NCBI GenBank assembly: GCA_020247395.1
Contig: JADCJC010000001.1
Coordinates: 1-42,834 of the forward strand
Source of the DNA: Rhodocyclaceae bacterium
Lineage (GTDB): Bacteria; Pseudomonadota; Gammaproteobacteria; Burkholderiales; Usitatibacteraceae
Direction: 5' to 3'
DNA length: 42,834 nucleotides
The notes beneath the pieces are model-generated. The model saw only the letters and a program-made list of their open reading frames with translations, did no database searches and was not told the origin of the DNA. Position 1 is the stretch's first letter; each line of letters begins with the position of its first letter. Both the position numbers and the translations under genes were made by a program. Shown piece after piece: positions 7,278-13,999 of this stretch.

Positions 7278-8692
7278 TCGCCGCCCCCGATTCCAGCGAG
7301 AGCGGGTGCGACACCGCTAACGGAGCCCGCGCCCATGGTAATCACCACGTCACCCGCCTTTACTCGGGCACGAATGGCGTCAGGAATCTCGGCAGGTGTT
7401 GCAACAAAGTGTGGCTCGACCTTCCCCGCCACCCGCATGGCGCGCATCAGCGCCCGTCCGTCGGCCGCCACAATCGGTGCCTCACCTGCGGCATACACGT
7501 CTGCGAGCACCACTTCGTCGGCGGTCGACATCACCTTGACGAAGTCCTCAAACAAGTCACGGGTGCGTGTATAACGATGCGGTTGAAATGCGAGAAGCAA
7601 CCGGCGACCGGGAAATGCACCGCGCGCTGCCGCGAGCACCGCCGCCATTTCCGCCGGATGGTGCCCATAGTCATCGATTAAGGTAAACGTGCCAGTGTTG
7701 TTTTCACCACCACAGGCAATTTCGCCGTATCGCTGGAATCGTCTGCCGACACCGCCAAAACCTGCGAGCGCACGGGCGATGATGGCATCTTCGACGCCAA
7801 TCTCGCGCGCAATCGCAATCGCCGCGAGCGCGTTCAATACATTGTGTGTCCCGGCGAGATTCAGCTCACAGTCGAGCACTTTTTTGTCGCCGCTTCTACC
7901 GGACGCGGAGGTGGCGGTGAAATGCATACGGCCATTCGCCGCACGGACGTTGACCGCACGAAGATCCGCGCCTTCGTTGAAGCCATAAGTACGCACCGGT
8001 TTCGTCAAACGCGGCACAATTGCTCGAACATTCGGATCATCTGCGCAGACCACCGCAAGTCCATAAAACGGCAGGTGTTCCAGAAACTCAACAAACGCCG
8101 ACTTCAATTTCGCGAAGTCGTGATGGTAAGTATCCATGTGATCCTGATCGATGTTGGTCACCACCGCCATGATGGGTTGCAGATACAAAAAAGACGCGTC
8201 GGATTCATCTGCCTCAGCGACCAAGTATTCGCCGCTACCAAGCTTGGCATTTGTGCCTATCGAATTCAGACGGCCACCGATCACGACTGTTGGATCAAGG
8301 CCAGCTTCGGCCAACACATGCGAGATGAGTGACGTAGTTGTCGTTTTGCCGTGGGTGCCGGCAACGCCAATACCCTGTTTGAATCGCATCAACTCAGCCA
8401 ACATCATGGCGCGCGGTATCACCGGAACCTGCGCAGCCTTTGCCGCGACGGCTTCAGGGTTGTCGGCCTTCACCGCGCTAGATATCACAACAACATCGGC
8501 GCCGACAATATTGCTGGCTGCATGCCCTATCAGCACTTTCGCCCCCAATGACTTGAGACGCTTAACGGTCGCGCTGTCGGACAAATCGGAGCCACTCACG
8601 GAGTAGCCCAAATTGAGCAGCACCTCGGCGATACCTGACATGCCGGTGCCGCCAATGCCGATGAAATGGAGATGTTTGACTTTATGTTTCAT
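7274..8692 (-). CDS. murC: UDP-N-acetylmuramate--L-alanine ligase MurC
   Basis: 472 aa ATP-dependent ligase that adds L-Ala to UDP-MurNAc. The N-terminal Rossmann motif [17 protein letters not shown] is followed by the ATP loop [13 protein letters not shown] and the central-domain motif [15 protein letters not shown] place the start at ATG 8692 ([10 protein letters not shown]), preceded by TAAGG seven bases upstream; the frame continues 22 codons further up, but into duplicated sequence. Two further copies of this start stand upstream, at 8819 and at 8957. The functional start therefore lies about 260 bp beyond the murG stop instead of overlapping it. Confidence 0.97.
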
Positions 8693-8957
8693 GCCAAACC
8701 TTAACTGCTGCGGCATTGGTGGCGGCGCGCAGCATGCGCGCAGAGCCGCCCCAAGCAATCGGCTTGCGATTGCGGCGTAAACCTGCGATGAAATGGAGAT
8801 GTTTGACTTTATGTTTCATGCCAAACCTTACCTGCTGCGGCATTGGTGGCGGCGCGCAGCATGCGCGCAGAGCCGCCGAATACTCAACCCCGGCAATCGT
8901 CTCGCGATTGCGATCCACACATGTGATGAAGTGGAGATGTTTGACTTTATGTTTCAT
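8653..8957 (-). repeat. Tandem repeat of the murC start region, three copies
   Basis: The sequence coding for [10 protein letters not shown] begins at 8957, 8819 and 8692, giving repeat periods of 138 and 127 bp. Ahead of the two inner copies stands nearly the same block of about 60 bp, ending in TAAGGTTTGGC and containing a GC-rich hairpin (GCGCGCA paired with TGCGCGC, flanked by GGCG and CGCC). Each unit also carries a small inverted repeat of the type GCAATCG...CGATTGC. The outermost copy differs from the others by one synonymous change (CAC for CAT). The repeats provide the murC ribosome site. Confidence 0.85.
8682..8957 (-). other. 91-codon upstream frame formed by duplicated murC starts
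   Basis: ATG 8957 overlaps the murG stop (ATGA) and begins with the same [11 protein letters not shown] as MurC. The frame reads through a second copy of the same start (8819, in frame) and ends at TAA 8684-8682, eleven bases inside the functional murC, which lies in another frame. It may be translated after murG and could hand ribosomes on to murC by stop-start coupling, or it may only be debris of the duplication. Everything between the [11 protein letters not shown] copies has no recognisable domain. Confidence 0.4.
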
Positions 8958-10054
8958 GCCAACGCTCCACACACATCAGCACACGCACGCGTTGCCTCGG
9001 GTTTGCCGAGCGAGCGTGCGACGTTAGCCATCAGAACGGCTTTGCCTCTTGTAAACGAAACTATTTTTTTCGCAAGCCCGTCAGCAGATTCGGTCTTCTG
9101 ATCTACCAACACACCCGCTCCAGCGTTGGCCAAAAACTGGGCGTTTGCGAGTTGCTCCTCTGCAACAAACCAAGGCAGCGGAATGAGAATGCTGGCAACC
9201 CCGGCAGCGGCAAGCTCGGCAACCGTGATAGCGCCTGCCCGACAAACGATGACGTCACACCAAGCGTACATCGCCGCCATATCCTCGATAAACGGCTTCA
9301 CCTCCGCTTGTACGTTCACGCGTCGATAGGCTTCCACCAACTCCGCATAATTTTTCTCGCCCGATTGATGGACAATCTGCGGCCGTTGGCCCGCAGGGAT
9401 GATCGCAATGGCAGCGACGATCAAGTCATTCATCGTTTTCGCGCCGAGACTGCCGCCGACGACCAGCAGACGCAGCGGACCGCCGCGTCCGGCGGAGCGT
9501 TCGCTCGGCGGGGGTAACTTCGTAATGTCTTCCCGCACCGGCGTGCCAAGCCATTCCACACGATTCGGCTTGGGCAACAGCCTCGCGATGCGGTTGTGCG
9601 GAACTTGGTCAAAGGCGTCGGGAAATCCTACCAACACACGGTCCGCAACTAGCGCAAGTGCACGATTGGCGAGCCCGGCGTGCGCACCTGGCTCATGCAC
9701 CACCAATGGTTTACCGAACAGTACCGCCATCATGCCGCCGGGAAAGGCGATATACCCTCCCATCGAAATCACGACATCCGGCTTCACGCGGCGCAATACC
9801 GAGAGCGATTGCCAGAATGCACGTAACAACACAAGCGGCAATGTCAGCCATGCTGCTTTTCCCTTGCCGCGCACACCCGACATCGCCACGACCTCTATCG
9901 GGTAGCCAACCTTGCCCACAAGTTTGTGTTCCATGCCGTTCGGGGTTGCGAGCCACACGATACGAAAGCCGCGCGTTTCGAGTACTTGTGCAATAGCGAT
10001 TCCCGGATAGATGTGTCCGCCGGTGCCCGCAGCCATGATGAGCGCTGTCTTCAT
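8954..10054 (-). CDS. murG: Lipid II synthase MurG
   Basis: 366 aa GT-B glycosyltransferase on the inner face of the membrane; it transfers GlcNAc from UDP-GlcNAc to lipid I, making lipid II. Visible are the N-terminal glycine loop [15 protein letters not shown], the acceptor-side region [25 protein letters not shown] and the UDP-binding part [15 protein letters not shown] with [14 protein letters not shown]. The start ATG 10054 overlaps the ftsW stop (ATGA). Its own stop overlaps ATG 8957, a duplicated copy of the murC start, which suggests the ancestral murG-murC overlap was there. Confidence 0.97.
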
Positions 10055-11256
10055 CCCCTCAGCACCCCCTTGCGCGCAGAGACCGAAGTGGCACGATTCT
10101 CAAAATCAATTCTGAGCAGCACGGCAACCGCGACACAATTCATCAATACACCGGTGCCGCCGAATGACAGAAACGGCAGCGTTAATCCCTTTGTCGGCAA
10201 CAAGCCCATGTTCACACCCATGTTGATAAAGGCCTGAACCGAGAGCCAAACGCCGATGCCTTGTGCGACCAAGGCCGCAAAGTAGCGTTCGCGCATCATT
10301 GCCTCGCGACCGACCATAAACGTGCGATAAACAAACGTGACAAACAATGCCATTACGACCGCGATGCCGACAAAGCCTAACTCTTCACCGATCACTGCCA
10401 ACAAGAAATCCGTGTGTGCCTCAGGTAGGTAGAATAGTTTTTCGACAGACGCACCCAGCCCGACGCCAAGCCACTCGCCTCGGCCGAAGGCGATTAATGA
10501 ATGTGAGAGTTGGTAACCCTTGCCAAACGGATCAGCCCAAGGATCCATAAATCCGAGGATGCGCTGCAGGCGATACGGTGATGACACAATGAGCACCACA
10601 CACGCGCCCGCCAGCAACACTAATAATGTGGCGAACACTCGCCAGTTGAGCCCGCCCAAGAATAGGATCGACATGGCAATCGAAGTGATGACTACCAACG
10701 CGCCAAAATCGGGTTGCCGCAACAAAAGAGCCGCCATAAAGACCATCACCGAGAACATCGGCAGGAAGCCTTTTTTGAAGTCATCCATAAATGCGGCTTT
10801 GCGGACCGTGTAGTCAGCGGCATAAATCACGGTAAGTAGCTTCATCAACTCTGAAGGCTGCATGGTCACGAAACCCAAGTTGATCCAGCGACGCGAACCG
10901 TTCACCATATTGCCAATACCCGGGATGAGAACGAGCACCAGCAACAGACCGCCTGCCATAAACAAAAAAGGAGCCGCGCGCTGCCATAACGCCATGGGAA
11001 TTTGAAAAACCACGATTGCGGCCATCACGCCGACGATCAAGTAGGCACCGTGGCGCAGCAGAAAGTAGGTTCCGCGATAACCGGTTGCTTTCATGGTTTC
11101 GGCCGTCATGATTGACGCTGAATAAACCATCACAAAGCCGATTGACAACAGCAACACGACGCTCCAAAACAAGACGAGGTCGACTGGCGCGCGCGAGGTC
11201 GCTTTTCCCGGCCTGGCATCACGTTGAAACATCCCTGTCTTGATGGCGCTAAGCAT
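10051..11256 (-). CDS. ftsW: Septal peptidoglycan glycosyltransferase FtsW
   Basis: 401 aa SEDS-family polytopic membrane protein, the glycosyltransferase that works with FtsI at the septum. About ten hydrophobic segments are visible, the first [21 protein letters not shown]. Family landmarks include [39 protein letters not shown]-like sequence with [20 protein letters not shown], and the end [21 protein letters not shown] 11256 overlaps the murD end by eight bases and has GAGGAG seven bases before it, so I prefer it over ATG 11232. Confidence 0.97.
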
Positions 11257-12646
11257 TGCGATGCTCCTCGCTCATTACCACCGACTGCGCCAATGACGAA
11301 ACCGAAGCGGCAAACACGTCACCGCGATGTTTGTAGTTGTTGAACATGTCGAAACTCGCACACGCCGGGGACAACAACACCGTATCACCCGCGACTGCCT
11401 GGGCATAAGCCATACGCACGGCCGCATCCATGTCACCGGCTTGCAAACAAGGCACTTGGGAGGCGGCAATTGCCGAGCGAACTTGCTGCGCAGACCTGCC
11501 GATCAACACCACGGCCTTTGCCGACCGCCTAATCGGCTCCACCAGCGGGGTGAAGTCCTGTTGTTTACCTTCGCCACCGGCAATCAGAATGGTGGGAGTC
11601 GTCATGCCATTCAACGCAGCCACGGTGGAGCCAACGTTGGTGCCTTTGGAATCATTCAGAAACGTGACGCCATGAATCACCGCGACCAGTGCGCTGCGAT
11701 GTGGCAGCCCGGCGAAGGACTTCAGTCCTCGCGATGCCTTCCTCAAATCGACACCGATCGCATCGCAAAGTGCAAATGCCGCCAGCGCATTGGCGGCGTT
11801 GTGTAAACCAGCGACGGGCAACTCTGCTAACGGCATCAACCGCGCTGAACCACGAGCCAGCCAGCCATCGACCAATCCAAAATTTTTCTCTTTGGTTGGT
11901 CGATCCAAGCCGAAACTCGCACACTCACAGCGTGATTCTTTCATCGACATGGAAACTGCATCGTCACGATTGACGATTTGGCGTGTCGCATGCAAAAAAA
12001 TCCGCTGCTTGGCAGCGGCATAAGCTTGCATGGAATCATAACGATCCAAATGATCCTGCGAAAGATTCAGCATGGTAGCAGCATCAAGATGCAATGAAGA
12101 TGTCGTTTCCAGTTGAAAGGACGACAGCTCGATCACGTACACATCCGGCTGCCCGGAGGCCTCGGCTATCGCGAGCGCATCCAACACTGGCAGACCGATA
12201 TTGCCGGCCACGACCGTCTGCAGGTCGGCGGCGGCGCACATCGCACCCGTCATTGCGGTCACTGTCGATTTCCCATTTGAGCCAGTAATGCCAATCACTT
12301 TCGGTTTCGTTCCTGTTATTTCATTTTGTTTCCACGCAAAAAGCTCGATGTCCCCAACGAACTTTTTCCCCGCCGCAATGGCCCTCTTGATGGCCGGGTC
12401 ACACGCGGGCCCCGTAACGGCCACGCCCGGGCTTGCAACAACGAGTTCGGCGTCGCCAAAGAGGCTGTCGGTCCAGCCTCCGGTGACAAGCTCACAACCA
12501 AGCGCTCTGATTGCATCGGCTCCGGGAGGTCGGTCTCTGCTATCGGCGATTCGCACACGAGCACCCATTCTTCGGAGGTGGCCGACGACGGAGAGGCCGG
12601 TGTCACCCGCGCCAAGAACAAGTACGCTTTTTTCATGCCAGCTCAC
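11249..12646 (-). CDS. murD: UDP-N-acetylmuramoyl-L-alanine--D-glutamate ligase MurD
   Basis: 465 aa Mur ligase that adds D-Glu in the cytoplasm. It begins at GTG 12646 ([20 protein letters not shown]), with GAGG eight bases upstream; no in-frame ATG is better placed. ATP loop [14 protein letters not shown], the motif [10 protein letters not shown] and the C-terminal [20 protein letters not shown] are all present. The gene is separated from mraY by 267 bp of duplicated mraY sequence and spacer, whereas the other Mur genes nearby overlap their neighbours. Confidence 0.97.
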
Positions 12647-12913
12647 TCCCCTGACCTCTTTGCATCGTTAATCCGCCAGACCCGCCTATTGACGGGCAGT
12701 TCGAGGCACTTTCACTCGAAACCTTCCGCCAATCGGACACTTTCAAATTTCGTTACCGCAACTTCAATGTCGACAACCCAAACAACACCAGCATCATCGT
12801 GATGATCCAAAAGCGCACGACGTGCGCGTTCTGGTCTCCGCCGCCCTCCGGACTTAACATCGCTTCGCGAGTTAGCGTCGCCCAAACCTTCACGTCATGC
12901 GCCCATATTTCTT
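12647..12913. other. Enlarged mraY-murD spacer
   Basis: This 267-bp spacer contains the second copy of the mraY end (12753-12822), about 100 bp of unexplained sequence between the copies, and a short hairpin region near 12690-12720 (CCCGCC...GGGCAG on the plus strand). I see no independent gene. A minus-strand frame (12753-13001) reads across both copies but is only the shadow of mraY joined to the duplicate. Confidence 0.6.
12753..12822 (-). repeat. Second, synonymously recoded copy of the mraY 3' end
   Basis: Minus-strand bases 12822-12753 encode [20 protein letters not shown] followed by LR and a stop, exactly the end of MraY, whose own copy is 161 bp upstream (12914-12983). The first about 46 bases are identical. 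The last nine codons, from the Gly codon to the stop, differ at nine positions and every change is synonymous: GGA/GGG, ACG/ACA, CTG/TTG, AAA/AAG, CTC/TTG, AGA/CGG, TGA/TAA (mraY copy first). The duplicate has no start of its own. This pattern suggests that both ends were once the selected terminus of a mraY gene. Confidence 0.9.
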
Positions 12914-13999
12914 TCATCTGAGTTTCAGCGTCGACAATCCAAACAACACCAGCATCATCGTGATGATCCAAAAGCGCACGACGACCTGGTTTTCTTTCCA
13001 ACCTTTTAGTTCGTAGTGATGATGCAGCGGAGCCATGCGGAATACGCGTTTGCCCGTCAGCTTGAATGACGCCACCTGAATCATCACGGAAAGTGTTTCC
13101 ATCACAAACACCCCGCCCATGATGATCAGCACAATTTCCTGTCGGCAGATCACCGCCACCAACCCAAGTGCACCGCCGAGTGCCAGCGCACCGACATCGC
13201 CCATGAACACTTCGGCGGGGTATGCGTTAAACCACAGAAAGGCAAGCCCTGCGCCGGCAATCGCGCCGCAAAAAATCGCGAGTTCGCCGGCCCCGGCGAT
13301 ATGTGGCACACCAAGGTAAGTCGCAAAGACTTTGTTACCGGCGACGTAGGCAAAGATGGCGAGCGCCGATGCAACCATCACAGTGGGCATGATGGCCAGG
13401 CCATCAAGGCCATCGGTTAGATTCACGGCGTTAGAAAAGCCCACTACCATGAACCAACCCAGGACGATGAAGCCGATGGCACCGAGTGGAATCGCCACCG
13501 TCTTGAAAAACGGTACGATCAAATCGGTCTGCTGCGGCAGGTTGGCGCGGAACGCTAGGTAGGACAGAGCCGCAGCCGCAATTACCGTCTGCCAGAAGAA
13601 CTTTGATTTAGCGGAAAGTCCTTTGGAATTCTTGTGTACCACCTTGCGGTAATCGTCAATCCAGCCGATCGCACCAAACCCGACGGTGGTGACCAGACAA
13701 GCCCACACGTAACGATTGCTCAGATCTCCCCATAGCAGCGTAGTCACAGTAACCGCAGTCAGAATGAGCGCGCCACCCATGGTGGGAGTACCGGCCTTCA
13801 CTAGATGCGTTTGGGGGCCATCGCTACGCACCGACTGGCCAATCTTCATCACCGTTAATTGACGAATCATCCACGGCCCGATGACAAATGAGATCACCAG
13901 CGCGGTCATCGATGCCAGCACGGTGCGCAGCGTAATGTAGCTGAACACGTTGAATGCCCGCACGTCTCTACCCAACCACTCGAAGAGTTCGAGCAACAT
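12914..13999 (-). CDS. mraY: Phospho-N-acetylmuramoyl-pentapeptide-transferase MraY
   Basis: 361 aa polytopic membrane enzyme that moves phospho-MurNAc-pentapeptide onto undecaprenyl phosphate, forming lipid I. Landmarks are [33 protein letters not shown] (with the paired Asp), [25 protein letters not shown] and the [13 protein letters not shown] loop. ATG 13999 overlaps the murF stop by one base (TAATG). The C-terminus (GLSTLKLR) uses the codons AAA CTC AGA TGA, while a downstream duplicate spells the same residues differently. Length is normal for the family. Confidence 0.98.

Follow-up and report, generated by a model that had tools for sequence, protein, structure and literature searches.

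A doubled mraY 3′ end in a Rhodocyclaceae genome: probable insertion of a dispersed mobile DNA hairpin that enters bacterial gene ends

Why should the 3′ end of mraY be present twice, side by side, in a bacterial cell-wall gene cluster, with the second end still encoding the protein? The window analysed here, i.e. the whole 42,834-nucleotide stretch of Rhodocyclaceae DNA, carries a cell-wall and division cluster comprising murC, murG, ftsW, murD, mraY, murF, murE and others, as read from their translations; among these genes, identity was tested by profile for mraY alone. An earlier note had placed a second mraY 3′ end on the reverse strand, 161 bp beyond the first. Repeat comparison confirmed this, giving a start-to-start distance of 161 bp (Table 1). 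The identical stretch it described was also present, at 45 nt (12939-12983 vs 12778-12822) instead of about 46. The recoded tail behind it differed, as claimed, at nine bases, all synonymous and including a TGA/TAA exchange of stop codons, but these fell in seven of the last 20 codons rather than nine, with no amino acid changes. The repeats at mraY and murC were the only exact repeats of at least 16 nt, on both strands, in the 42.8-kb window, which excludes a chance origin for the mraY repeat. MraY was 99% identical in the closest named relative, the Rhodocyclaceae bacterium isolate M042S1SP1A13QC MAG (JADCIX010000034.1). Taken together, the evidence below makes it likely that the doubled end reflects a single insertion of a mobile DNA hairpin, non-coding and with a core of about 55-70 nt.

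Table 1 Features of the window (positions on the whole stretch) and of three further model matches in the same genome. R2 and R3 are covariance models described in the text.
Feature	Position	Strand	Evidence
mraY, functional copy with newly made 3′ end	12914..13999	(-)	TIGR00445, 434 bits (cut-off 192); ORF of 361 aa
Functional mraY 3′ end, part present twice	12914..12983	(-)	repeat family D1
Left inverted arm GGGCGCATGACGTG, weak in the window copy	12891..12904	(-)	fold of 12810-12930
Core DNA hairpin, two stem-loops on a common stem with internal GA loop	12824..12891	(-)	R2 66.6 bits, R3 61.7 bits (core in the training set of both)
Right arm, the start of the displaced copy, pairs with left arm	12811..12824	(-)	fold
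Displaced, original mraY 3′ end, 19 aa and stop still encoded	12753..12822	(-)	sequence repeat
Original mraY-murD spacer, 110 nt tested	12643..12752	(-)	match to G003, G008
murC 5′ end in three copies where murG meets murC, separated by GC-rich hairpins	8660..8970	(-)	repeats 127 and 138 bp apart
C59, 5′ end of glutathionylspermidine-synthase-like gene			R3; gene below curated cut-off
C35, 3′ end of acyl-CoA-dehydrogenase-like gene			R3; gene below curated cut-off
C82, 3′ end of xerC-like gene			R3; gene below curated cut-off

Searches for MraY covered 61 genomes, and those for its last 38 residues covered 399 order genomes, among them that of the window. A second mraY end occurred in 17/399 order genomes, again counting that of the window. 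This number was 19/399 before closer inspection, which excluded G321 (L051), where the doubled end was an assembly join across an N run, and G374, where the second match was an unrelated partial one. These 17 genomes, together with G012 from the 61-genome search, formed the 18-genome mraY set. Unit length ranged from 147 to 185 bp across this set and was identical (161 bp) in the window's genome (G000) and G012, which belongs to the same genus. The 161-bp unit of G012 and the second end in 17/399 genomes make an assembly error unlikely. The spacing between the two ends was 87-125 bp, and all 18 inserts folded as a hairpin, in many cases containing an internal GA loop and a pair of inner stem-loops. 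Within the genus g18, the element was present at mraY in G349 and G169 and there was none at this site in G041, G293, G264 and G375. Inspection by eye of one further locus (L026, G020) showed mraY followed directly by an apparent ftsW, with murD missing between them.

The core between the two mraY ends is quasi-palindromic and about 70 nt long. Because MAFFT aligned the central part of 16 cores poorly, two class alignments were used instead. Covariance models R1 and R2 were built from mraY cores, and R3 from 64 hits; the first models were trained on mraY copies that had been found via their duplication. R1 or R2 matched 17/18 mraY inserts, 15 of them training sequences; G072 and G164 lay outside the training set yet were matched, and G281 was unmatched. 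Cores were G+C-rich in most model matches, and no base reached 60% in any of the first five columns of alignment A5.

Searches with R1 in nine genomes and R2 in 11 revealed copies far from mraY. Doubled 3′ ends surrounded the hairpin at hypD, atpG, gap, sucC, alanine transaminase and ftsA, and doubled 5′ ends at accC, murG and nuoD as well as tRNA-Ser (host genes named by NCBIfam above the curated cut-off, tRNA genes by ARAGORN). A bamE-like end at L087 was not confirmed by NCBIfam. Four hairpin units stood in tandem at the atpG 3′ end and three at that of gap. The same host gene was entered repeatedly: the nuoD start at eight loci in four families, four of these loci (L258, L259, L267, L268) being one nuoD site in one genus; the alanine transaminase end at L115, L263 and L277, in three families; and the murG start at L118 and L272. 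Several individual loci are recorded here as separate observations. L165, L166, L167, L168 and L169 held tandem arrays of three to four identical or near-identical units of 74-143 bp, each with a hairpin. The 5′ part of a tRNA-Ser gene was duplicated around the hairpin in L168 (5420-5711), that of a tRNA-Leu gene in L270 (1501-1574), and an element lay beside tRNA-Phe in L262. At L264 (G069, 1501-1574) the element sat inside mpl with in-frame read-through, by eye adding about two dozen residues before the ATP-binding motif. That at L306 (14935-15000) lay within a larger inverted repeat AACAGGCCGTTGAAAAAC, possibly another mobile element.

With R3 at E ≤ 1e-4, matches occurred in 118/399 order genomes (55/158 genera), in scans whose strict filters lose weak matches and of which the order scan scored at most 12 candidates per genome. 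In a class-wide sample scanned with the same strict filters the number was 2/369, namely the window's genome and G118, both within the order. A blastn search of plasmids and phages with a composite core gave no match. In viral contigs, an exact pattern found seven stretches, two with R3 matches; these hairpins, on IMG/VR contigs L319 (9337-9402) and L320 (4511-4586), may be host-derived.

With R3 at E ≤ 1e-4 the window's own genome showed four copies, that at mraY and three others at gene ends. C59 and C82 showed the flanking repeat by DNA score; C35 did not, and showed it at the protein level (14/16 positions identical, stop included). The C59 insertion was also present in G003 and G012. The segment of 101 bp between the mraY copies, proposed for a search of the same genome, thus had further copies by structure model and none by DNA similarity, which returned chance-level matches only. 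Within the window, 4 kb away from mraY, is the triple murC start, which the earlier note did not mention. Its region 8710-8759 gave a weak R3 match (14.0 bits, E 0.014, filters off), and it is probably a degenerate second member of the hairpin family.

The elements were arranged as a gene end, then the hairpin and then the original gene end, often with a short inverted arm ahead of the hairpin, and most elements examined lay between two direct copies (about 20-70 bp) of the host gene end. A direct repeat with an ungapped score of at least 16 flanked 37/46 elements, 15 of which were mraY sites discovered via duplication, in comparison to 3/276 random positions in the same loci. Amongst the 31 non-mraY elements found by structure, which include the orthologous L113, L117 and L120, neighbouring pairs in L132 and L126 and single members of tandem arrays, 22 had the repeat (3/276 controls). 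The other nine had no flanking repeat at the score used; L102 and L127, negative by DNA score, showed it at the protein level. A second set, from a later search, gave 14/23 versus 0/138 controls, with L257 tested at the wrong position.

The inverted arm was less general. Counted on the left only, it reached a score of at least 11 in 13/44 elements versus 9/264 controls, and in 7/29 without the mraY sites; 31/44 fell below this score, and a better-of-two-sides count was 15/44, two of these passing on the right side only. At mraY, an exact reverse complement of 8-16 nt of the gene was found in the first part of the insert in 15/18 genomes, its source lying 56-79 nt upstream of where the stop codon ends. 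Where the two mraY copies differed at this source, the arm agreed with the functional copy (G072, G043). No such arm was found in G000, G300 and G357 among the 18 inserts checked. In the window, the longest exact complement between the left arm and the functional copy was 5 nt (ungapped score 7), and the fold of 12810-12930 included a stem of 14 pairs, wobble pairs counted, between 12891-12904 and 12824-12811 (z -3.0). Junctions can be written as ..|ANAA t R, arm, H, ANAA t R.., where t denotes a short stretch of the target, R what remains of the gene end, and H the hairpin, and read GCC/ACT then ANAA. Because the search expression required A or C at position 1 and A at position 3, it dictated part of the right-junction motif, and the junction evidence is position 4, which was A in 23/27, together with the match to the target; 27/43 junctions aligned at 13/18 or better. 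Immediately before the site stood G in 12 cases and C in 11, with one nuoD site contributing several of the latter.

Short imperfect hairpins with many copies invite comparison to REP-type palindromes, mobilised by RAYT or another Y1 (HUH) transposase. The core does form a short, imperfect hairpin at the DNA level, one strand of which has unpaired bases; the junctions would be compatible with single-strand chemistry of the IS200/IS605 type, and PF01797 was found in 13/20 element-rich genomes (at least five R3 matches in the order scan). However, PF01797 was absent from 7/20 element-rich genomes, including the single-contig G174 and G381, the figure being also 7/20 for element-free genomes (no match at the strict filters). 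IS200/IS605 elements make no larger target duplications, according to PMC2817692, whereas most elements here had direct repeats of about 20-70 bp. Among 30 Y1 loci, none had a clear element closer than about 1.5 kb (best E 0.033, R1 and R2). We therefore consider mobilisation of this kind unlikely.

A second explanation, raised from the window alone, was that recombination with the mraY of a relative left both ends side by side, without any mobile element. The character of the displaced ends gives it some weight. Across the 18 genomes, the two mraY ends differed at 119 codons, 110 synonymously and nine nonsynonymously. Neutral tandem duplication followed by decay was rejected on this count, as about 76% of random single changes would be nonsynonymous, and the earlier argument that a synonymous-only pattern does not fit a decaying dead duplicate thereby held over 18 genomes. 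In ten genomes, including that of the window and the related pairs G349/G169 and G000/G012, the copies differed at 7-13 bases with no amino acid change; the protein-based search favours protein-conserved copies, but this alone is insufficient to account for those ten. In 11/18 genomes, the displaced end was nearer to the functional end of some other genome than to its own, weak evidence given that the best of 133 ends was taken. Outside mraY, synonymous changes apart, the start codon (ATG/GTG) was the sole difference in 6/8 nuoD rows, and hand-framed 3′ ends showed 0-2 changes, the valid rows omitting the misaligned L115 and the self-compared L169 and that of L271 spanning two codons.

Against this stand the hairpins of all 18 inserts, matched by R1 or R2 in 17 (15 in training), and the presence of the same core between the doubled ends of other genes. 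In addition, fresh-looking cases had identical copies: the mraY ends of G074 agreed at 60/60 positions, and four gap copies were identical from ANAA to stop. The proposal that the inserted end arrives already recoded did not survive these cases, in which the insertion carries the host's own end; divergence therefore came later, or by allele exchange. Pure recombination at mraY is refuted as a full account and has, as such, a very small probability, although it is the likely source of the synonymous differences. Details of individual genomes are consistent with this role. G349 and G169 shared 94/101 positions of the element and 56/60 of the functional end, in comparison to 49/60 of the displaced end and 85.3% of the mraY body, which fits a module of functional end plus hairpin that may have moved between species by homologous recombination, leaving the native end behind. 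The two ends within G074 and within G117 were alike (60 and 58 of 60), with 54 and 52 between the genomes, as under gene conversion. The change in the window from 45 identical bases to a diverged tail resembles the edge of an exchange tract. Most simply, displaced ends keep their protein sequence through continual recombinational exchange. Since hairpins between direct repeats promote deletion, deletion between the two ends should be frequent; it would be lethal where the displaced end of an essential gene is broken, and selection may therefore also keep that end intact.

The relatives also indicate which mraY end is the older. The 110 nt after the displaced end matched the spacer in two of nine insertion-free relatives of the genus, G003 and G008 (local score 28 against each; shuffled maxima 17 and 18), and were unmatched in the seven others tested. 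The sequence after the functional end matched only the element-bearing G012. The displaced stop overlapped an apparent murD start in G359, G281 and G319 (by eye), and at murC the first copy overlapped the murG stop. The flank and these overlaps imply that a new gene end was placed in front of the old one. Comparing relatives to find the ancestral terminus, as had been suggested, thus pointed to the displaced end through G003 and G008 and gave no match in 7/9.

The integrase of integrons recombines folded single-stranded hairpins, and the element could accordingly be an attC site scattered by such an enzyme. TIGR02249 scored over its cut-off in 13/20 element-rich genomes, with partial matches in G047 and G120. 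However, the difference from element-free genomes (9/20) was small, and matches in G172, G381, G127, G300 and G116 were far below cut-off. An initial attC detector, set too stringently, returned no site; a relaxed one found attC-like sites in 7/12 intI regions and none in shuffled sequence, and these had a different layout, with R boxes outermost. R3 gave one clear match in the 12 regions, at L306, away from its attC-like site. An attC origin is hardly probable on these grounds, and no linked or universally shared enzyme emerged among the Y1 and integron integrase candidates in the genomes examined.

Covariation in the cores concerns the molecule that folds. Across 47 distinct aligned cores, 90.7% of cells paired, in comparison to 70.0% in shuffled sequence, and 17/23 pairs were changed on both sides (182 cells vs 56 in shuffles), though an alignment fitted to the model favours pairing. 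Of 982 cells, 868 were Watson-Crick, 23 G-T and 21 A-C, showing no wobble excess. An RNA structure should tolerate G-U far more than A-C, and the near-equality of G-T and A-C therefore argues for a single-stranded DNA hairpin rather than RNA; it points to a DNA strand, or to a DNA-level process perfecting palindromes. Rfam gave two sub-threshold matches in 8500-13300, neither at the mraY element, and none there at gathering score. The most improbable explanation is thus an RNA structure downstream of mraY (terminator, attenuator or sRNA) maintained for a regulatory role. Stable folds of some copies and the compensatory changes speak for it; against it stand the lack of a wobble-pair excess, 16 related loci in which Rfam matched nothing up to E 5, and hosts that include 5′ as well as 3′ gene ends and tRNA genes.

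The mobile hairpin is therefore our preferred explanation: a widespread and apparently undescribed family that enters the ends of important bacterial genes. In outline this upholds the earlier suggestion of an insertion that restores the gene end, now extended to a dispersed hairpin family at many genes, in which the far copy is the original. The order of the unit is t-R-t′-H-t-R; at mraY, the copy joined to the gene body is functional and the far copy the original end. From the end products alone, the following order of strand events can be proposed. The element would move as folded single-stranded DNA. A nick in one target strand, before the A-rich ANAA site, would expose an end to which H would be attached by one of its own ends. 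Strand displacement from the free 3′ end would then re-copy t and R, generating the direct repeat and preserving the gene. The new strand might next switch to the displaced strand and copy t backwards, which would form the arm, until copying stopped at the foot of the hairpin and ligation followed. Recombination of the two ends with each other, and with relatives that lack the insertion, would afterwards keep the displaced end coding, and deletion between the repeats could restore the empty site. Whether this amounts to a new mode of DNA mobility, in which a protein-less single-stranded hairpin is joined at one end and the target is re-copied behind it with an inverted arm, we regard as evenly balanced.

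If true, insertions into essential genes would be harmless and reversible, which would have let the family reach about a third of a bacterial order. Essential genes would be expected to stay free of small repeats; here insertions recur at the ends of genes such as mraY, nuoD, atpG and gap and of tRNA genes, and the genes remain unbroken because the insertion itself brings a spare end. Should the strand model hold, it offers a simple route for DNA hairpins to multiply without a protein of their own and a testable account of partial gene duplications that are easily missed in annotation. Displaced, protein-intact ends would form a natural record of recombination at essential genes.

No description of the hairpin family was found in the open-access full-text literature searched. 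Its relation to known systems, as far as the parts of the cited papers drawn on describe them, is as follows. YPAL / RU-2 of Yersinia is likewise a small mobile palindromic repeat with internal inverted repeats and target duplications of variable size (3 to 26 bp), but is about 168 bp long, lies between genes and occurs in other taxa; those parts of PMC2229807 mention neither restoration of a gene end nor an inverted target copy. Rickettsia palindromic elements (RPE) are palindromes inside protein and RNA genes (PMC2229807), comparable to the mpl insertion at L264. They are fused into the gene in that account, whereas the hairpin family usually duplicates, and thus restores, the gene end. MITEs have TA-ended terminal inverted repeats and are A+T-rich (PMC2229807), unlike the mostly G+C-rich cores and their GCC/ACT-ANAA junctions. 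REPs resemble the family as short imperfect hairpins acting at the DNA level in many copies per genome, but carry a GTAG/GTGG head 5′ of the palindrome (PMC2817692), and the family has no conserved head. It differs further from REP/RAYT in its long flanking duplication and in having no associated Y1 gene seen.

The attC site has R″/R′ boxes (RYYYAAC/GTTRRRY) outermost and occurs in cassette arrays. It shares with the family a folded single-strand DNA hairpin with unpaired bases, and differs in box order and junctions, the sole R3 match near intI lying away from the attC-like site. Integrative elements that restore the ends of tRNA or protein genes are kilobases long and encode an integrase. 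The hairpin insert is about 100 nt (87-125 bp at mraY) and has no integrase, yet like these elements it is inserted at a gene end, with a new end joined to the gene and the original displaced to the far side.
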